Below are positions 1 through 8,042 of a stretch of DNA of 36,485 nucleotides, piece by piece. A program made the position numbers and the translations under genes. Source of the stretch: Candidatus Dadabacteria bacterium. Lineage in GTDB: Bacteria; Desulfobacterota_D; UBA1144; Nemesobacterales; Mycalebacteriaceae. The notes beneath the pieces were generated by a model that was not told the DNA's origin, made no database searches, and saw nothing but the letters and a program-made list of their open reading frames with translations. Position 1 is the first letter of the stretch, and each line of letters begins with the position of its first letter. The stretch lies in assembly GCA_026708565.1 (NCBI GenBank), contig JAPOUR010000023.1:1-36485 (forward strand), read 5' to 3'.

Positions 1-1787
1 GTTTCATTTGCTTTTTGCCTGATTCTTCTTTTACCTGATTCAGAGTCTGATTCCATAGCGCGAATAATCCTGTCTATATCCGTCTGGTGTTCCGAGACAG
101 AGACTGGTATTTCGTCCGTCTTGCTGTATTTGGGTAAAACCCTTTCCACGATATAGTCAAAAACATTAGGTTTTGAAAGCCCCAGTCGTTGAAGAAACTC
201 TCGGGATTGTTCATCGGTAGCAATGGAGCGCTGAATGACAGGAAAGTCAGTTTCTTCAGGTATTGGTAAGAAGGCGTTAGGAGTTGTTCCATCCTCCGAC
301 TTAAAGGGAACTGCTTGGCTACCGTCTTCTAAACGAAGTATAGGTTTTGATCTTAGGATACCGATAGGTGCTCTCCAAAGTGCCTCTTGTCCAGATAGAT
401 ATTGATACAAATTGATAAACCATTTGTCTGGTTGATCACATAAAAAAGAGTCATCAAGTTTTTCGGCGAAACGCCTCGCTGTTACTTCCTCTACATCAAG
501 TTCACTAGTCAAATAGGAATGCAGATCGTGCGCTTTATCCTGAGTTATTTCTCTGGTAAGCCATTTAATTGCTGATGAGGACTCAAATAACTGGCACATC
601 TGTGTCTGGCTCAATAGATTGATGAGGTCGGCACCACGAGCCAGTTTGGCATTCTTGGCAGAAATGAATGAACCATCATCTGCCGGGAGGAGCTCTTCTT
701 CTATTAATACGTTTCGGACCGACTCAACAATTGGGTAAAACATATTACCATCTGGAAAATCATCGGTTCTTATCGGAAGCGTCTCAAGAAAAGACACCGA
801 AAGCAAGCCAAGATCCCTTATTTGAGGCAAGGTGTCCCTGATGAGCCCAGCGGTTTCTTGTATCAAAGTTTTGTTCCATTCATCATCTTTTGGGATATTG
901 TCACGCGCCCGTGTTGTCCTGTAAGGACCTTGGAGGAGAAACCCGAACCTTGTCTCTTTCTCTGTGGGGAAATAAACCACCAATGCCGAATCTTTATTCT
1001 CAGTAATAAACTCATTGCCTGTTTTGTCTTTATTCTCCAATCGGAAGCCGACTTCAACGCGCACAGTCTCCGGTTTTTCTGGAACAGTTACCGTGCGTTC
1101 AAAAATGAGCCAGTTTTCATCCTCATTCTCTTCATTGTGTTTACCGATAACACGAACTTGTCTCGCAGGTTTCCGCTTCTCCTTCTCTTCCTCGCGCTGA
1201 TAAGTCCCGCCTATTGAGTTGGTCAGTTTGTACTCAATTTTGTTGATTTTTCGGAGAAACAATAGTGTTCTGGCTCTCATGTTGCGGAGGCAGTTACTTA
1301 TTTCCTTGCATGCTTTTTTCGGTTCTATTTCCTTCGCATTGAATGGGAATACAAAAAGCGTAGTCCATGAGTTACCTGCCTCTTTGGAAGGAATTGAGTA
1401 AGGACGCACATAGTGTTCTATTTTGAAACTTTCACCATCAGAGTGGATTTCCGGAGTTGCTGTGTATGCGTAAACGGACTTAAATCCAATCCCGAATTGA
1501 CCGATCTGTGTCAGATTTTCAGTTTTGGTTCCTTCCCCGATACCACATATTCCAATTACATCTTGCTCATTGAAAGGGCGTCCGTTATGAGCCACCTCCA
1601 CCCTGTCATCAAAAAGGTCGAACTGTATGCGAGTGGCACTCACATCCTCTGCGTTCTGGAGAATCTCAAAAACAAAGTGTGTTTGATCTGTATACATTCG
1701 ATCTGAAAAAGAGGACATGTAGCGGGATGTCTCTTCACCATACTTACGGATATTCTCCTCACGTATCTTTTCGTAATCAATAGGCAT
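1..1787 (-). CDS. Sacsin-like GHKL (HSP90/MutL-fold) ATPase, 3' end outside window
   Basis: The minus-strand frame from 1787 stays open to the window edge (about 595 codons), so the C-terminus is missing. The N-terminus has the GHKL ATPase motifs: an N box with E41-x3-N45-A-E-D (the Asn coordinates Mg), an N-G at 68-69 in the second motif, and a glycine-rich lid at about 95-106 (IGQFGIGFKSV). This pattern is typical of sacsin-type ATPases that often occur in bacterial defence islands. The ATG at 1787 is preferred because GGAAGAA lies about 8 nt upstream; an ATG at 1793 is nearly touching that site. The start lies inside the last codons of the helicase gene, giving a short overlap and probable translational coupling. 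Base composition is visibly lower in GC than the central genome. The effector or C-terminal domain cannot be judged. The fold is well supported; the defence role is inference. Confidence 0.85.
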   Translation of the reverse strand, partial: MPIDYEKIREENIRKYGEETSRYMSSFSDRMYTDQTHFVFEILQNAEDVSATRIQFDLFDDRVEVAHNGRPFNEQDVIGICGIGEGTKTENLTQIGQFGIGFKSVYAYTATPEIHSDGESFKIEHYVRPYSIPSKEAGNSWTTLFVFPFNAKEIEPKKACKEISNCLRNMRARTLLFLRKINKIEYKLTNSIGGTYQREEEKEKRKPARQVRVIGKHNEENEDENWLIFERTVTVPEKPETVRVEVGFRLENKDKTGNEFITENKDSALVVYFPTEKETRFGFLLQGPYRTTRARDNIPKDDEWNKTLIQETAGLIRDTLPQIRDLGLLSVSFLETLPIRTDDFPDGNMFYPIVESVRNVLIEEELLPADDGSFISAKNAKLARGADLINLLSQTQMCQLFESSSAIKWLTREITQDKAHDLHSYLTSELDVEEVTARRFAEKLDDSFLCDQPDKWFINLYQYLSGQEALWRAPIGILRSKPILRLEDGSQAVPFKSEDGTTPNAFLPIPEETDFPVIQRSIATDEQSREFLQRLGLSKPNVFDYIVERVLPKYSKTDEIPVSVSEHQTDIDRIIRAMESDSESGKRRIRQKANE

Positions 1788-4700
1788 TTGCATTTCTTCC
1801 TGAAACCTGAATTACTCCATATGCAACCAGACCAGCAACTATATCTGCTTTCTCTGAGGCGGTGTCCAATTCTCGAATTCGTCTTGTGTAGTCCTCATCC
1901 GCAGCGGTGACTTGAGACCTACGCATTTTTTGAATCTTTTCGTTGGTTGCTTGGCAGAGTTGTTCTTCCAAAAGAGCAACCCGCGCTCGGTGACTGGTGG
2001 ACAGACTCTCCCTCCGATACTCAATTAATTCCTGAGTCTTTTGCCGATGCCTGTCTCTGGCAATGCTCCATAATTCGTAGTGATGAGATTCCAAGTCATC
2101 CCAATCTGAATCTTCAAACCCGTCCGGAATTGGGTCTGGAGAATCCGTGGCATTTTCCAAGAGGAGGCTAAGATGTTCTGTTACTGCGGTGTTTGAAGTG
2201 ATGAGTTTAAGCACCAAGTCATCCCTGATGCCGTGAAAGTGCCACGAGTAAATAGCGAATTCGTAACGCCCTGAGGGTATCTCGTCAGATGTTGCTGTCA
2301 GATTGGCTATGACACATTGTTTAGTATCAAAGAACATGGCCGCCTGTTTGACCAGTGGGTGTAGGGGCATGATAAAGGCGGCTTCGGGATGTTGCATGGC
2401 GCACTCAGACTCAAAGGTGATGACTAAATGCTGACTTCCGCCCTTGAGCCAATTTTCCCATTCACGATAAACAGAAGTATTTTGTCTGGGAAGTTGCTGA
2501 AAATCTCTTAAAAGACTGGCACGGGATTCCTGAGCCAGTCGTAGTGTCTTTAGCGGCTTTTCACCCAGAATAAACTCCTGACCCTTGCCACACACTCGCT
2601 GTAGGTAGAGATTTATCATCCTGCGGAGTGAGGTAGATGACAGCCAAAAACTTGTTGCATCGGCAATTTCGTTATCCATTCGCTCTTGGGGGAGGTGAAT
2701 ACCAAACAGTTCCGCCTGTTTTTGCTCCAGATCTTCTTGCTCTCGGACAAGCCGGATTTTATTGTCGGTCATCTGCTGAAGTTTTTTCGTGCGTTCCTCT
2801 TTGCTCAATTCGTAATTTTCCGCGATGTTTCTAATCTCACGGGTGATTTCCCCAAGTATTTCCTCGCTTCCGCCCAAGGCATTATTGAAGACACCGATGC
2901 GAACCAAGCACCGCTCGTAGATATCTGCATCCACTGTTCCCGGAGTTATTAAGTTTATGACGACAACGCTCTCGCTCTTTTGCCCGTTCCTGTCAATACG
3001 GCCGATGCGTTGCTCAACCCGCATGGGATTCCAAGGAAGGTCATAGTTCACAATGCAATCGCAAAACTGGTAGTCAAGTCCTTCACAACCAATTTCCGAA
3101 AACAACAACAAGTCAAGAGAGTCCTCATCCTCTTTTGGTTTTTCAAAGCGGGCGCGAGAGGCAACTCTATCCTCGTCCGGAGTTCCCCCGTGAATCAACC
3201 CGACACGGAAGCCGTCTTGTTTTAGATGATAGAAGAGGTATTTCAAGGTATGCCGGAAGCTGCTGAACAGCATTACCTTGTTGTTCGGAAGGCTTTGCTT
3301 GTCACGGATTATTTTGCGTAGAGCTTCTAATTTGGGGTCATCCGACTCCAGAGAGCGAGCAACCTTAAGGAGATTCTGAATTTGGGGCTTGATTGAATCA
3401 ATGGTCTCATAATCAGGGATATCTGTATTATCCGCTTCTTCCACAGGCAGTTCATCCACATGGCGGTTGAGAATGTCTTCAAGAAAGGGGGCAAGACCAA
3501 AGAGGCAACTGGCCGCCTGCCGCCTGATGGTGGACATCATGAATTTCACATTAACCTTATTGTGAATCCGGCTGAATATATCAGCCTGAATTCTTAACAG
3601 TTCATCGTGCAGATTCTGCTGGGCCGGAGTAAACGGTACGTCAACCGTCTCGGGCTTTCTGACTGTAAAATTCCCAATGTCACGGCGGCGGGTTCTGTTG
3701 ATAATTCCGGCAAGGGTGTGGATTCCCTCAGTGTCGGAAATCATCCTCACTCGTTCTTCATGTGTAACCTCATTCTCCAGAAGCTCGGAGCGGATTCTAC
3801 AAAAATCCGGATTGCGCCTGAGTAGAGCCTGCCCCCAAGATGTGGCCGCCGCCTGATCAAGAGATTTTACCGCCAGACTTTGCCATTCCGGTTTTTGAGA
3901 CCGCATTACTGAAACTGCCTGATTGATAAACGGGTTTGGTTCTGTCATGTGTTCAAAACTCTCCTGATCTATGATGAGGTCGGGGCGGAGGGTGTTCAAG
4001 AGAACAAAAAGATCGTTGTTTCCGAGTTGAATAGGAGTTGCCGTCAAAAAAACAACCGCTTCGGCATAGTCGCAGAAAAACTTCACGGCCTTGTGACTGA
4101 ATGTATCCTGATTTCTTATATGGTGAGCCTCATCAACAATAATCAGGTCAAAACGCGGTGGCGGGTCAAGGTCCAGCAGACCTTTTTTTCGTTTGCGCTT
4201 TCCTTCGGAGTTTGAGCCGTGTAGCAGTGATTCGTCAAACAGGGAGTAGGGGACAATAATCTTCTGATGTTGTTCCGGCCAAACACCGTTAAGGTCCATC
4301 TCATTGATGCAGTATCTCAAGTTTGCGCCATTGAGATGGATAAAACGCTCTTCAAAGCGTTTCATCTCACTTTGCCATTTTTTCTCGGTAACCAGCGGTC
4401 GTGGACAGACAATAAGCACGGAGCGTATCTCACGCCGAGCCTGAAGTTCCCGCAGGATAAGTCCGGCTTCAATGGTTTTACCTACGCCAACTCCATCGGC
4501 AATGAGCAAGCGCGGACGGTCCGAGCGAATAAATCGCAATACCGGTCTGAATTGATATGGTATGAAATCAATACGGGCGGCATTGAGCGAGTAGAGGGTA
4601 GACAGTCCCGGGTACTTGATTTGTAGGGCAGTAAGATAAGCATGGAATTGATCACAGGGCAAAGTGTGTTCCCTTTGCTTGGGCTGTTCTTCGGTCTGTA

Positions 4701-4857
4701 TTTGCGATGCGTAAAATGTTTGAGTTGATCCGTCCACAAAAACCTTGAATCTGCGTTCCGGTTTTCCGGGCAATGAAGCAACCACAGCGCCACGGATTGA
4801 CGGGTTTGATTTGACGAAGACAATTTGTCCGGGTTTGAAATCAATTTCATTTGGCAT
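1777..4857 (-). CDS. RapA/SNF2-family DEAH helicase (candidate defence helicase)
   Basis: This 1026-residue superfamily 2 ATPase has a small N-terminal beta-type domain (about 5-55). The SNF2 core follows, with Walker A at 122-128 (G-x-G-x-G-K-T), D242-E-A-H and L-T-A-T-P at 271-275. The helicase C lobe (about 510-660) has motif V near 588-595 and the arginine-finger motif Q616-R-I-G-R-x-x-R-x-G-Q. The layout resembles RapA/HepA and the SNF2-type helicases of phage-defence systems such as DISARM DrmD. The long C-terminal half after about residue 660 is partly coiled coil and I do not recognise it as a nuclease or methylase. The SD is AGGAAGAAG upstream of the ATG. It is co-transcribed with, and overlaps, the GHKL ATPase. 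No methyltransferase or nuclease is visible on this side, so the named system is unknown. Helicase identity is firm; the exact family is not. Confidence 0.88.
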   Translation of the reverse strand: MPNEIDFKPGQIVFVKSNPSIRGAVVASLPGKPERRFKVFVDGSTQTFYASQIQTEEQPKQREHTLPCDQFHAYLTALQIKYPGLSTLYSLNAARIDFIPYQFRPVLRFIRSDRPRLLIADGVGVGKTIEAGLILRELQARREIRSVLIVCPRPLVTEKKWQSEMKRFEERFIHLNGANLRYCINEMDLNGVWPEQHQKIIVPYSLFDESLLHGSNSEGKRKRKKGLLDLDPPPRFDLIIVDEAHHIRNQDTFSHKAVKFFCDYAEAVVFLTATPIQLGNNDLFVLLNTLRPDLIIDQESFEHMTEPNPFINQAVSVMRSQKPEWQSLAVKSLDQAAATSWGQALLRRNPDFCRIRSELLENEVTHEERVRMISDTEGIHTLAGIINRTRRRDIGNFTVRKPETVDVPFTPAQQNLHDELLRIQADIFSRIHNKVNVKFMMSTIRRQAASCLFGLAPFLEDILNRHVDELPVEEADNTDIPDYETIDSIKPQIQNLLKVARSLESDDPKLEALRKIIRDKQSLPNNKVMLFSSFRHTLKYLFYHLKQDGFRVGLIHGGTPDEDRVASRARFEKPKEDEDSLDLLLFSEIGCEGLDYQFCDCIVNYDLPWNPMRVEQRIGRIDRNGQKSESVVVINLITPGTVDADIYERCLVRIGVFNNALGGSEEILGEITREIRNIAENYELSKEERTKKLQQMTDNKIRLVREQEDLEQKQAELFGIHLPQERMDNEIADATSFWLSSTSLRRMINLYLQRVCGKGQEFILGEKPLKTLRLAQESRASLLRDFQQLPRQNTSVYREWENWLKGGSQHLVITFESECAMQHPEAAFIMPLHPLVKQAAMFFDTKQCVIANLTATSDEIPSGRYEFAIYSWHFHGIRDDLVLKLITSNTAVTEHLSLLLENATDSPDPIPDGFEDSDWDDLESHHYELWSIARDRHRQKTQELIEYRRESLSTSHRARVALLEEQLCQATNEKIQKMRRSQVTAADEDYTRRIRELDTASEKADIVAGLVAYGVIQVSGRNANAY

Positions 4858-4893: not shown

Positions 4894-4922
4894 AATATAA
4901 TCTCCATTCCTCACCCTTTCAA
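4894..4922 (-). promoter_or_regulatory. Predicted sigma-70 promoter of the helicase/GHKL operon
   Basis: On the minus strand there is TTGAAA (4922-4917), a 17-nt spacer, then TATATT (4899-4894). This implies transcription starting near 4887, about 30 nt before the helicase ATG. The -35 box lies within the left copy of the duplicated gene-end repeat, so this promoter depends on the repeat junction. This is prediction by inspection only. Confidence 0.5.
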
Positions 4923-4965
4923 AAGACTCTTCCCCTCCGCCGTCTGCGGAACGGGCATTTTCCAT
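4909..4965. repeat. Left direct repeat flanking hipBA (copy of the phosphodiesterase 3' end)
   Basis: Bases 4918-4956 are identical (39 bp) to 6643-6681, and similarity continues with a few mismatches from about 4909 to 4965. The copy still encodes, in the minus strand, the last residues and stop of the phosphodiesterase gene (PVPQTAEGKSLLKG then TGA), but it is detached from that gene. A further GGGCAATAA occurs outside the repeat in both copies (4887-4895 and 6596-6604). This is the arrangement expected of an attachment-site-like or recombination duplication around the hipBA cassette. hipA stops directly at the repeat edge. Confidence 0.85.
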
Positions 4966-6189
4966 CTACCCGCCAACCTCAATAGCGGTTGCGTAAACGG
5001 CAATATCCGCCGCGCTCATGCCGAGTCGGCGCGCTGTGTTTTTCCAGCCTTTCAGGGCGGCGGCCACTTCCGTGATAACGGCATCCGCCTTGGACTCCTT
5101 CAGCGCGAAACACGGCGCGACCCTGAGGGCAAGTTCAAGGTCGGCTTCCGGCCCTTCCTCCGATATCCAGGTCGTCAGTTCCCGCGCCTTCTCTGTCTGC
5201 GGCACCGGATTCAGGTCATAAGCCGGTGATAAACGCCATTTGTTGTTCCGGTCATAGAGAAAGCCGTGGTTGCGCAAGTGGTCATCAAGGTTGCCGACCA
5301 TCACGTTGAAGACAATGCGCCGCCACAACTCATGCAGGTCTTCCGTCGGCGCGCTTGAATACATCCGTATGCACTCCGCAATGTCAGTATAGGTTGCGGT
5401 GTCTCCGTCACCAAGGCCCAGAAGACTCATGGCGGACAGGAAGGGTATGCGCCTTTCGCCGACACGGTCAAACCGTGTAATCAGCGATACGGCCCGACCG
5501 GCCACTTTGTGCAACCTCGCCGCAGCGACACGTATGTCGGCTTTGGCGGCCAGCGTCATGGCCAGCACTTCGCCGTGGGTGATACTGCGGTCATCATCGG
5601 GTTTCGGGAATTTGGCGATGGCCAGCGTGCCGTTATTGTCCGCAACGGCGGATTTCGGACGCGCGCCGCCGAGCGGCGAACCTTCGTTCAGAAGGAGTTT
5701 CAAATCTTCGGCGGTTTCCGTGTCCGTCTGCACCGCGTCGGCGGCATTGAGGAGGGCAGACAGCTGAATCAGCGGCGGCACACGGTAGCGGCCGATGTCG
5801 TGGCCAAAGGTGTCTCCGCCCTCCCGCTTGTAGCGCAAGGCTCCGATACGGGTTTGGTCGCTGATACCGAGCAGATAATCAATCTCGGACAGCGCCCGCT
5901 CTTTGCCCGCTTTGCGGAAAGCCCGCTCAATCAGGCGCTGCCCCCAGCGGTCAGGCGCCGTGTCACGCAAGGCGCCGGGCAACGCCGACTTGCCCGAAGA
6001 TGTATGGAAGGGTCGCTTTTCCAGCGGGAGATTTGCCGGATCAAGGGAAAAGGCGCTTTGATAGTCAAGCCATTCGTCCGCATATTCAAAAACCGAACTT
6101 TGACTGCCGCGCTTTGCAATATAATGGCACCGGCCAACCAGCCGTATCTCTCCGGTGTGGTCCGTATGAACCTCTATGCCGTCCGTCAT
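4966..6189 (-). CDS. hipA: HipA-family serine/threonine kinase toxin
   Basis: This 407-residue protein is the toxin of a type II toxin-antitoxin pair. HipA kinases phosphorylate translation factors such as GltX and induce dormancy. An N-terminal HipA_N-like region (about 1-100) precedes the kinase core. That core has a glycine-rich phosphate loop (G174-G-A-R-P-K-S), a conserved Lys in I-A-K-F-P near 193, the catalytic loop N300-L-D302-D-H304-x-x-N307 and the metal-binding Asp of A-Y-D325-L-N-P. All key residues are present, so it appears active. Its ATG overlaps the hipB stop by 4 nt (ATGA), so antitoxin and toxin are co-translated. The stop codon abuts the left copy of a direct repeat, and the gene has no other partner. 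The in vivo target is unknown. Confidence 0.93.
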   Translation of the reverse strand: MTDGIEVHTDHTGEIRLVGRCHYIAKRGSQSSVFEYADEWLDYQSAFSLDPANLPLEKRPFHTSSGKSALPGALRDTAPDRWGQRLIERAFRKAGKERALSEIDYLLGISDQTRIGALRYKREGGDTFGHDIGRYRVPPLIQLSALLNAADAVQTDTETAEDLKLLLNEGSPLGGARPKSAVADNNGTLAIAKFPKPDDDRSITHGEVLAMTLAAKADIRVAAARLHKVAGRAVSLITRFDRVGERRIPFLSAMSLLGLGDGDTATYTDIAECIRMYSSAPTEDLHELWRRIVFNVMVGNLDDHLRNHGFLYDRNNKWRLSPAYDLNPVPQTEKARELTTWISEEGPEADLELALRVAPCFALKESKADAVITEVAAALKGWKNTARRLGMSAADIAVYATAIEVGG

Positions 6190-6518
6190 GCCCGCATCCT
6201 TTTCCTGCGCGGCCGGATTTTCGCGGGCAGGCGGTCTTCCTCAATATCCAGTCCGAGGGTGTCATCGCGCCGGTCAGCCACCATTCCGAGGCCGTCCGCG
6301 AGACCGAGGATTGCCAGCACGGTCGCATAGATTCCCATGGAAACCGAGGGGTCGCCCCGTTCCACCTTATACAATGTGCCCCGGCTGATAAACGCCCGTT
6401 CCGCCATTGAGACGGTGGAAATGCGGCGCTTCTTGCGGGCAACCGCCATATCCCCGCCCAACTTTGCCAAAGCCCGCCGCGCCGCGCGGGGCATTGTTTC
6501 TGTTGCCTGTGATTTCAT
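6186..6518 (-). CDS. hipB: HipB-like XRE-family antitoxin and repressor
   Basis: This 110-residue DNA-binding protein precedes hipA and overlaps it by 4 nt. The helix-turn-helix spans about residues 36-75, with the recognition segment around F43-I-S-R-G-T-L-Y-K-V-E-R-G, typical of XRE/Cro repressors. The C-terminal tail (about 98-110) is strongly basic and longer than the minimal HTH. HipB proteins bind HipA, neutralise it and autoregulate the operon. The ATG at 6518 has AGGATGAG just upstream, and this ribosome-binding site lies inside an inverted repeat, consistent with autorepression. Family assignment is strong from fold motif plus context; operator binding is inferred. Confidence 0.9.
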   Translation of the reverse strand: MKSQATETMPRAARRALAKLGGDMAVARKKRRISTVSMAERAFISRGTLYKVERGDPSVSMGIYATVLAILGLADGLGMVADRRDDTLGLDIEEDRLPAKIRPRRKRMRA

Positions 6519-6519
6519 T

Positions 6520-6570
6520 ATGTCTCATCCTGTAGTCAACAGACTTGTATCTGTTCACTGGATAAGACAT
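6520..6570. promoter_or_regulatory. Nested inverted repeats: probable HipB operator
   Basis: The outer arms ATGTCTCATCC (6520-6530) and GGATAAGACAT (6560-6570) are complementary at 10 of 11 positions. A perfect inner palindrome, AACAGA-N6-TCTGTT, occupies 6538-6555. The outer arms contain CATCC and GGATA cores resembling the known E. coli HipB operator halves (TATCC...GGATA), but with wider spacing. One arm covers the predicted -10 box and the other covers the hipB ribosome-binding site. Confidence 0.6.
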
Positions 6571-6595
6571 TATTGCCATCTGTCCGGGAAGTCAA
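6569..6595 (-). promoter_or_regulatory. Predicted hipBA promoter
   Basis: On the minus strand TTGACT (6595-6590) and AATAAT (6574-6569) are separated by 15 nt, slightly short of optimal. The -10 box overlaps the right arm of the inverted repeat, as expected for an autorepressed toxin-antitoxin operon. Confidence 0.45.
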
Positions 6596-6599
6596 GGGC

Positions 6600-6637
6600 A
6601 ATAAAGGGGGGTGGCGGCAATACCGTCCCCGCCCCTC
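6600..6637 (-). terminator. Possible factor-independent terminator after the phosphodiesterase gene
   Basis: Immediately after the phosphodiesterase stop the minus strand reads a G-rich arm, a short spacer, a C-rich arm (CCACCCCCC) and then TTTATT. This could fold as a GC-rich hairpin followed by a short U tract. Pairing is imperfect, so support is weak. Confidence 0.35.
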
Positions 6638-6689
6638 AACCCTTCAAAAGACTCTTCCCCTCCGCCGTCTGCGGAACGGGCGTTTCCAT
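6634..6689. repeat. Right direct repeat flanking hipBA (native 3' end of phosphodiesterase gene)
   Basis: This copy is the functional C-terminal coding end of the phosphodiesterase gene. Bases 6643-6681 match 4918-4956 perfectly, in direct orientation. The distance between copies is 1725 bp, just enough for hipBA and its control region. Confidence 0.85.
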
Positions 6690-8042
6690 ATACTCAAGAA
6701 TGGTCGGGTAAATGTCCACCGTTCGCGCCTCGCGCCCGGACACGGGGGTGTTGATTGCCACAGGGACGGTCGTGTGCTCCGTAGCCATTGAGCCGTGAGA
6801 CGCCATGTGTTCGGGAAACTCAAACCGCGCCCGGAGGTCAAAACCGGGCTTGGCGCTCACCACTATGTCTCCCGCGCGGGACGACTCAAAGATTTGGCAC
6901 GCCTGAACAAGCGCGTCCGGATATTCGGTTGAAAACGTCAGGGAGAGTTGCTCGTCTTTTGACATTGCCTCCGGCATATTCTCAAAGCCGAAAGGGTCGC
7001 CCCCTTTGGTCTCATAGATGATTTTCTCTCCGCGCCGCTCTATGCGCGCCCGCCCCCTTTCGCTTAAAACGGTTACCCCGCCGCCCCCGTCCGCGCTCAT
7101 CACAATGTCCGTCTCCCGCCTGTCGGCAAGCATTTGCGCCACCTCACCGACCGCCGCCCCGTCCGGGTCTCTGAAATAAATATGCGCCATGGCGTTGCCC
7201 GAAACCATCACGGAACAGTCCGCGCCGAAGAAGTTGCGGAATATGTTCGGATACTGAAGAAGCCTGAAGCCGCGCTCCTCAAGAAGCCCCGCCAGATCAA
7301 GGTGCGTATGCGTCGCCGTCAGCCCGTGGTCGCTCACAATGGCGACAAGCGTCCGTTCCAGCAGCCCTTTCTCCCTGAGTTTGCCCGCCACCTCGCCCAC
7401 AATCCCGTCCAATTCCAAATATGCGTCTATCACCTTTTTGTGAAAGGGATGGAGTTTGTGCGACAGCGAATCTATCTGCATAAACACGGAGAAACAGAAA
7501 TCAGGGATGTCCTCCTCCGGGCGCTCAAAACAGCTCAGCAGTTTGTCCGCCGCCACACGGTCAATGGATTTGCCTCTTTCAAAAAAATGGCTTCGCAGTT
7601 TCCAGTAGGCGGAAACCGCGGGCCTCGTGAGATTGTTCTCCGGGGCAAGCCCGCGCGTCATCTCGTTGAAAATACTTGCGCTTGAAGGGAAAATCTCAAA
7701 CAATGTGGGCGGTGACTCCGCCAAATCCCCGTTCAGAAACGCCGCCTCATAGCACACGTAACTCCTGATGCGCCTGATGTTGAAAGGATTGTCCCACAGT
7801 TCCTTGTCCAGCCACCTTATCCCCGGCATGCCGCACTGTCCCGGAAAGACGCCCATCAGATAAGGGGAATAAGCCGGGCCCGTAGTTGACGGAAAGACCG
7901 ACGCCGCTTTTGTGAACCGTCCCGGCTCCACAATGTGGCGGGCGATGTTTTTCAGCATTCCGCGCTCCAGCAGATGCTCAAACACATCACTCCTCGCTCC
8001 GTCCGCGAGCATTACCACGCATCTTTTTTTACTTCCGCTCAA
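6636..8042 (-). CDS. Alkaline-phosphatase-superfamily type I phosphodiesterase/nucleotide pyrophosphatase
   Basis: This 468-residue enzyme of the alkaline phosphatase fold should hydrolyse phosphodiester or pyrophosphate bonds with two metal ions. Visible metal and nucleophile positions are D14 in L-A-D-G-A-R, the nucleophile region F-P-S-T53-T54-G, D191-x3-H195, S-D238-H239-G and a late S-H-G in the C-terminal third. There is no signal peptide, so it is probably cytoplasmic. The start is TTG, overlapping the glnE stop by 4 nt (TTGA). A later ATG would remove the first beta strand. It ends a priA-glnE-phosphodiesterase operon, and its 3' end is duplicated beyond hipBA. The true substrate is unknown; phosphonate, nucleotide or lipid head-group hydrolysis are all possible. 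Confidence 0.85.
   Translation of the reverse strand: MSGSKKRCVVMLADGARSDVFEHLLERGMLKNIARHIVEPGRFTKAASVFPSTTGPAYSPYLMGVFPGQCGMPGIRWLDKELWDNPFNIRRIRSYVCYEAAFLNGDLAESPPTLFEIFPSSASIFNEMTRGLAPENNLTRPAVSAYWKLRSHFFERGKSIDRVAADKLLSCFERPEEDIPDFCFSVFMQIDSLSHKLHPFHKKVIDAYLELDGIVGEVAGKLREKGLLERTLVAIVSDHGLTATHTHLDLAGLLEERGFRLLQYPNIFRNFFGADCSVMVSGNAMAHIYFRDPDGAAVGEVAQMLADRRETDIVMSADGGGGVTVLSERGRARIERRGEKIIYETKGGDPFGFENMPEAMSKDEQLSLTFSTEYPDALVQACQIFESSRAGDIVVSAKPGFDLRARFEFPEHMASHGSMATEHTTVPVAINTPVSGREARTVDIYPTILEYMETPVPQTAEGKSLLKG

Follow-up and report, generated by a model that had tools for sequence, protein, structure and literature searches.

In 2008 Iyer, Abhiman and Aravind reported predicted restriction-modification (R-M) systems in which GHKL proteins of the MORC and paraMORC type are encoded alongside SWI2/SNF2 helicases and nucleases of the HNH family; operons that combine a GHKL ATPase with a superfamily II helicase are a published R-M theme (PMC2292703). 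Each half of such a pair also has relatives in named defence systems. DISARM, BREX and Hma contain the helicases DrmD, BrxHII and HmaA, respectively, the last accompanied by the methylase HmaB, and the RapA-like architecture is present also in BrxHII and BREX-related helicases (PMC12839542). Tiamat, as represented in PADLOC by the TmtA models, is a single-gene, sacsin-like system.

The idea that a helicase paired with a GHKL ATPase serves in restriction dates from 2008 (PMC2292703); the sacsin-type version of this pairing had neither a name nor a mechanism in the sources searched. The pair described here provides a bacterial context in which the role of sacsin-type ATPase modules can be studied. 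Human sacsin is built from related modules and is mutated in a hereditary ataxia.

The locus and its borders

The pair occupies positions 1-4857, minus strand, of the window, a stretch of 36,485 nucleotides that is the entire contig C23 of the source genome (Candidatus Dadabacteria bacterium, GCA_026708565.1, completeness about 96%). On gene calls made as longest open reading frames, the genes of the SNF2 helicase and the sacsin-like GHKL ATPase, both on this strand, overlap by 17 bp, or by about 11 bp when the second ATG is taken as start (Table 1). The first-pass annotation had seen an SNF2 helicase gene overlapping a GHKL ATPase gene in a lower-GC segment beside a toxin-antitoxin pair, and this description is confirmed by the coordinates and by Pfam and NCBIfam: the toxin-antitoxin pair is hipBA, located upstream on the same strand, and the GC content is 43% in the sacsin gene and 48% in the SNF2 gene as against 57-60% in the remainder of the window. 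The drop over the gene pair is genuine. It was also borne out that the visible, right side of the pair lacks methylase and nuclease genes.

Table 1. Features of the SNF2-sacsin locus; positions refer to the window unless another contig is named.
Feature	Position	Strand	Remarks
RapA/DrmD-type SNF2 helicase	1777..4857	-	1026 aa, intact; Pfam/PADLOC/NCBIfam, Foldseek
TUDOR-like beta-barrel of helicase N-terminus, ~residues 8-56	4690..4836	-	AlphaFold2 model; architecture comparison, PMC12839542
SNF2 motif I, GVGVGKT, residues 122-128	4474..4494	-	GKT invariant in 24/24 homologues
SNF2 motif II, DEAHH, residues 242-246	4120..4134	-	DEAH in 24/24 homologues
Post-helicase alpha/beta region, ~residues 740-900	2158..2640	-	AlphaFold2, Foldseek to RapA
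Sacsin-like GHKL ATPase, N-terminal 597 aa	3..1793	-	runs off contig end; Pfam SACS, NCBIfam sacsin
GHKL N-box EILQNAED, residues 43-50	1644..1667	-	E, N, D invariant in 28/28 homologues
GHKL G2 box IGQFGIGFKSVY, residues 97-108	1470..1505	-	glycines and lysine invariant in 28/28
Rest of sacsin gene	G000:C47 (locus L041) 3-1229	+	408 aa, opens contig
67-bp direct repeat copy 1, duplicated phosphodiesterase 3' end	4894..4960	.	left of hipBA
hipA kinase-type toxin	4966..6189	-	Pfam HipA_C 7e-49
hipB-like HTH antitoxin	6186..6518	-	neighbour
67-bp direct repeat copy 2, 85% identical	6619..6685	.	phosphodiesterase 3' end
Phosphodiesterase-like housekeeping gene (PDE), right border of insert	6636..8042	-	synteny priA-glnE-PDE-carD-nuoF in G001

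The left border was found by comparison with G001, the sole same-genus genome found, where priA, glnE and the phosphodiesterase gene are followed at once by a convergent carD and then by nuoF; this is the empty site, without the insert. In the source genome nuoF is located near the start of contig C47, which begins with the 408-aa remainder of a sacsin gene, then carD, then nuoF. The parts of 597 and 408 aa abut with no missing residue when aligned with a 1005-aa homologue, and from synteny and homology we infer that C23 and C47 join within the sacsin gene. Since on C47 the sacsin remainder is followed by carD and nuoF, the insert would consist of hipBA, SNF2 and sacsin alone, and since the left end is resolved in this way and the site in G001 is empty, a concealed effector, methylase or nuclease gene is not to be expected. 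The leftward extension, which yielded the sacsin end, carD and nuoF and no DISARM or BREX locus, thus contradicts the earlier suggestion that the unseen left part may hold an effector.

The hipBA genes have a history of their own, separate from that of the pair. They form a cassette of about 1.7 kb (4894-6685) between the two 67-bp repeats, which occur in these two copies only in the whole genome; the arrangement resembles a site-specific integration, with no integrase inside. As a candidate part of the module hipBA was rejected: a hipA homologue is found near one other pair locus only, there downstream and on the opposite strand.

The SNF2 helicase

The helicase matches the Pfam families SNF2-rel_dom (3.2e-17) and Helicase_C (3e-20), and its top PADLOC model is DrmD with 384 bits, the BrxHI/BrxHII and HmaA profiles of PADLOC being matched as well. 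An N-terminal TUDOR-like barrel is followed by the SNF2 core and by RapA-like C-terminal domains; a HEPN domain is absent from the protein of the window. The AlphaFold2 model (pLDDT 78) gave a full-length Foldseek match to RapA (E 1e-32), and in this model residues ~740-900 appear to occupy the position that a degenerate REase-like domain has in RapA and BrxHII, an interpretation that follows PMC12839542. Motifs I, II, V and VI are essentially invariant among the homologues, across phyla. In the phylogenetic tree the protein falls into a 27-member clade of sacsin-paired helicases (SH-aLRT 99), its nearest neighbour being the helicase of Desulfobacter latus (L042) with 77% identity.

The sacsin-like ATPase and its C-terminal domain

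The sacsin-like protein is recognized by Pfam SACS (6.8e-18) and NCBIfam sacsin (5.6e-26); its top PADLOC model is TmtA with 238 bits over 17-560, the full TmtA length not being reached (the sacsin ortholog covers 33-808 of the 1302 profile positions). By PDB profile the solved structures nearest to it are of sacsin (E 2e-12), MORC2 being matched only weakly (E 0.009), and an AlphaFold2 model of the D. latus protein (pLDDT 83) has structural matches to Hsp90, GyrB, MLH1 and MORC2. The nearest relatives in the sacsin tree are those of D. latus and of a Halanaerobiaceae MAG.

The profile of the C-terminus found the HNH domain of TagI (6ghc) with E 6.3e-10; this part of the protein is an HNH-like domain with kinship to the restriction enzymes TagI and McrA. 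In the window copy the catalytic positions are replaced (HH by KE, Asn by Gln and the last His by Ala), and the catalytic His is missing from nearly all relatives too; what the domain keeps are the zinc cysteines and a few other core residues only. Among complete proteins the HNH-like domain with its zinc motif is present in 26 of 28 SNF2-paired and in 0 of 19 UvrD-paired sacsins (Fisher 3e-11, calculated for loci that are not phylogenetically independent), so that it marks the SNF2-partnered sacsins as against the UvrD-partnered ones, which terminate in a DUF3883-like region common to a TmtA model.

A second recurrent module was also noticed, in which a sacsin with a DUF3883-like end is accompanied by a UvrD-PDDEXK helicase-nuclease, a ResIII/TnsA-like helicase and a DNA methylase of the N6/N4 type (L094, L070, L050, L122-L124 and others; Enterobacter hormaechei DSM 14563 and viral contigs of IMG/VR are examples). 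Other sacsin-like genes were noticed in further settings. On plasmid pSULKU01 of Sulfuricurvum kujiense (L023 9237-17772) a Qat defence operon is immediately preceded by a NERD gene and a sacsin-like gene with DUF3883, and in G061 (L016 6141-19305) a sacsin-like gene lies between HmaA and HmaB. The source genome itself encodes another, only distantly related sacsin-like protein, whose gene is truncated at the end of its contig (L010, G000:C59, 2-14042), with large methylase-like and SIR2-like genes some kb away; this looks like another defence region.

Recurrence of the pair

The first genome scan, with the window protein as lone query, gave no match, and a tblastn search of phages gave one partial match. 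A scan of GTDB genomes and IMG/VR with the sacsin yielded 85 fetched loci. At 30 of these, counted without correction for common descent (the loci are not phylogenetically independent), and additionally at L049, the sacsin gene is immediately preceded by a homologous SNF2 gene in the same orientation, in most cases with an overlap; three of the 30 have one small gene between the two, and at two further loci of the 85 a distant SNF2 homologue is found downstream of sacsin. A helicase-led profile survey of 291 genomes of another phylum, which avoids the bias of a sacsin-based search, gave five matches above 1200 bits, all five with sacsin immediately downstream, and a weak one of 592 bits without it. 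In the phylum of the window 3 of 58 genomes had an SNF2 match, the weak one among them (G032) being without sacsin. The association of helicase and sacsin is not due to chance.

The pair is found across many bacterial phyla, on plasmids of Ensifer and Rhizobium and, in a more distant form, in the archaeon Methanomethylovorans hollandica, where R-M genes are nearby. In the ortholog in G026, a genome of the same order as the source, the SNF2 protein carries a fused HEPN_Swt1 and the sacsin is complete with 1011 aa; upstream of this pair are genes for a type I R-M system, a YgjP protease and a nuclease of the HARE-HTH/Mrr type. The flanking genes are altogether mixed, some of them ordinary metabolic ones, and orthologous pairs are not confined to the company of housekeeping genes; a constant third partner did not emerge from the flank scan, in which each family accounted for at most 3 of 108 flanking proteins.

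Mobility, divergence and accessory parts

The module is horizontally mobile, because its GC content is low, the site in G001 is empty, only the 3 genomes of 58 in the phylum have a match, the closest relatives belong to other phyla and there are plasmid copies. The two proteins differ in their divergence, the sacsin evolving much faster than the helicase: relative to the window, L090, for instance, has 35% identity in sacsin and 67% in the helicase, and L108 has 28% and 61%. The SNF2 and sacsin trees conflict for some members, and partner specificity is therefore loose. In Thioalkalivibrio sp. HK1 (L049 2441-13126) two sacsin genes, each from a different clade, come after a HEPN-SNF2 gene, which suggests duplication and possible hetero-pairing.

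The accessory parts vary: there may be a Swt1-HEPN fusion, a ~180-aa gene upstream, a gene of 202-238 aa in between, or none of these. The fusion, with its RNxWAH motif, is present in at least seven fetched relatives; a HEPN search elsewhere in the genome of the window gave no match, and control genomes gave none either. The conserved ~180-aa gene precedes the pair in Alphaproteobacteria (L018-L020, L100-L102, L104 and L106). Its product looks sigma-like by eye and was rejected as a sigma factor, the similarity not being significant (E 0.4). The protein of 202-238 aa encoded between SNF2 and sacsin combines a coiled coil with an alpha/beta part (L042 9264-9980, L045 9314-9955, L048 8901-9509), and no convincing relative of the proteins at these three loci was found.

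Proposed function and its alternatives

From its mobility, its domain kinship and its company we conclude that this mobile module is probably an as yet uncharacterised defence against invading DNA. With moderate confidence we propose more specifically a self-contained module of two ATPases, unnamed and related to the GHKL-SWI2/SNF2 operons of 2008, that acts against invaders. The conserved adjacency of the two genes, the catalytic motifs of both ATPases, kept across phyla, the structural matches of the two models and the partner-specific HNH-like domain support this proposal, as does defence-type company, namely the R-M and HARE-Mrr genes in G026, the R-M genes in Methanomethylovorans and the Swt1-HEPN fusions; so does the precedent of GHKL ATPases encoded with superfamily II helicases. 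Against it stand the mixed flanks, which include metabolic genes and have no constant third gene, the loose partner specificity seen in the conflicting trees, the phylogenetic dependence among the counted pairs, and the lack of a recognised effector in the form found in the window, which leaves the killing or blocking step unexplained. The defence-island-type pair of the first-pass annotation has accordingly survived as a real and mobile helicase-GHKL pair of the defence type, its effector guess has not.

In the mechanism envisaged, the SNF2 protein would be a translocase on double-stranded DNA and the sacsin-like protein a dimerising, ATP-gated GHKL clamp of the Hsp90/MutL type, with the degenerate HNH acting in docking or in the reading of DNA, stabilised by zinc and specific to the partnership with SNF2. 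The sacsin subunit would recognise or license foreign DNA; upon binding of ATP the clamp would close and then load or gate the SNF2 motor, whose translocation would strip or block replication and transcription complexes on the foreign DNA. Both proteins would require their own ATPase sites. Where Swt1-HEPN is fused it could be an added RNA-cleaving effector. In the form found in the window neither a nuclease nor an RNase is recognisable, and it would therefore have to act by translocation and clamping or via host nucleases, the blocking step being either translocation itself or the exposure of DNA to these nucleases. Complex formation and the order of events are what we infer. Since the minimal pair separates the two ATPases from nucleases and methylases, their joint action is directly testable. 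A more far-reaching version, which we consider doubtful, is a distinct type of immunity that needs no nuclease of its own: an HNH restriction domain would have become a docking element without catalytic function, attached to a sacsin-like GHKL clamp through which a RapA-like motor is committed to foreign DNA. RNase (HEPN) add-ons would be optional, and sacsin subunits would be exchanged or duplicated as variable parts that set specificity, as in the tandem pair of L049.

The C-terminal domain could instead still cut DNA, delivered by the SNF2 motor in a type IV-like, modification-dependent restriction. Its homology to the HNH domains of TagI and ScoMcrA, the match of the Ensifer copy to the PADLOC mREase_IV model and the His and Asn retained near the catalytic positions in L053, L072 and L093 speak for such an activity, but with KE, Q and A at these positions in the window, the His lost in nearly all relatives and only the zinc ligands and a small number of other core positions conserved, we regard it as improbable. 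We judge in the same way, as having a small chance of being correct, a transcription-coupled action in which the RapA-like motor would work on RNA polymerase or R-loops of foreign DNA, sacsin would gate it and the HEPN versions would cleave transcripts. The RapA architecture over the full length, the fusion in at least seven relatives to Swt1-type HEPN, a family acting on RNA, and the small sigma-like gene upstream in Alphaproteobacteria are in its favour; the sigma-like similarity lacks significance, however, and with 179 of 576 bits the helicase falls far short of the cut-off for the RapA family. RapA-like architecture moreover does not imply RNA polymerase, because BrxHII and BREX-related helicases have it too (PMC12839542).

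That the copy in the window is a decayed remnant, no longer functional after loss of its HEPN effector, was considered because HEPN is located at the helicase N-terminus in both the closest relative L042 and the ortholog in G026, and because the window helicase begins past the HEPN point with hipBA directly upstream. Neither reading frame is interrupted and every motif is present, however, and pairs without HEPN occur commonly and in diverse forms (L047, L048, L103, L108, L109, L113, L116, L117), which makes decay quite unlikely. A chaperone or a DNA-repair or stress module without a role against invaders would agree with the GHKL/Hsp90 fold, the kinship to RapA and the several metabolic neighbour genes, but the module is patchily distributed, low in GC and missing from the same-genus genome, and it has copies on plasmids and relatives in other phyla, all of which speaks against such a core function; we consider this reading very unlikely. 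That the locus is what is left of a truncated DISARM, BREX or Hma system is scarcely credible: the helicase does match the DrmD, BrxHI/BrxHII and HmaA models, yet only two genes besides hipBA are located between the phosphodiesterase gene and carD, the genome has neither a DrmB nor a PglZ domain, and the scores are low (301 of 610 bits for the DrmD cut-off; 134 bits for HmaA as against 1637 for a true HmaA).

Comparison with named systems

A named system of SNF2 and sacsin was found neither in PADLOC-DB 2023 nor in the openly accessible papers searched, in agreement with the earlier remark that the layout matches no named system. With DrmD of DISARM and BrxHII of BREX the helicase shares the TUDOR, SNF2 and RapA-like C-terminal architecture; it remains below the DrmD equivalog cut-off of NCBIfam, its partner is a sacsin-like ATPase and other DISARM or BREX genes are missing, there being no DrmA, DrmB or PglZ at the locus, where hipBA, SNF2 and sacsin alone lie between the phosphodiesterase gene and carD, and no DrmB-type DUF1998/MZB domain and no PglZ in the genome. 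Hma is likewise an SNF2 helicase defence system, from which the locus differs by its lack of a methylase and by the low HmaA score. RapA is matched structurally over the full length of the helicase, which is not its ortholog by the family cut-off and which is mobile and sacsin-paired. Membership in DISARM, BREX, Hma and RapA was rejected on the scores and the missing genes.

Tiamat shares with the pair the N-terminal GHKL half that matches the TmtA models, but the sacsin of the window is shorter (~1006 aa) and has a pseudo-HNH in place of the DUF3883-type C-terminal end; its adjacency to a helicase argues against a TmtA-like single-gene action. The MORC/paraMORC operons also have a GHKL ATPase gene beside that of a superfamily II helicase of the SWI2/SNF2 family, are laterally mobile and often include HNH domains in the same operon, a restriction function being predicted (PMC2292703). 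The GHKL protein of the window is, in contrast, nearest among solved structures to sacsin and only weakly MORC2-like, and its HNH is degenerate and part of the same polypeptide, with neither a methylase nor a separate nuclease encoded beside it. The present pair thus differs by the absence of methylase and nuclease, by its sacsin-type GHKL ATPase and by the pseudo-HNH domain fused to it.
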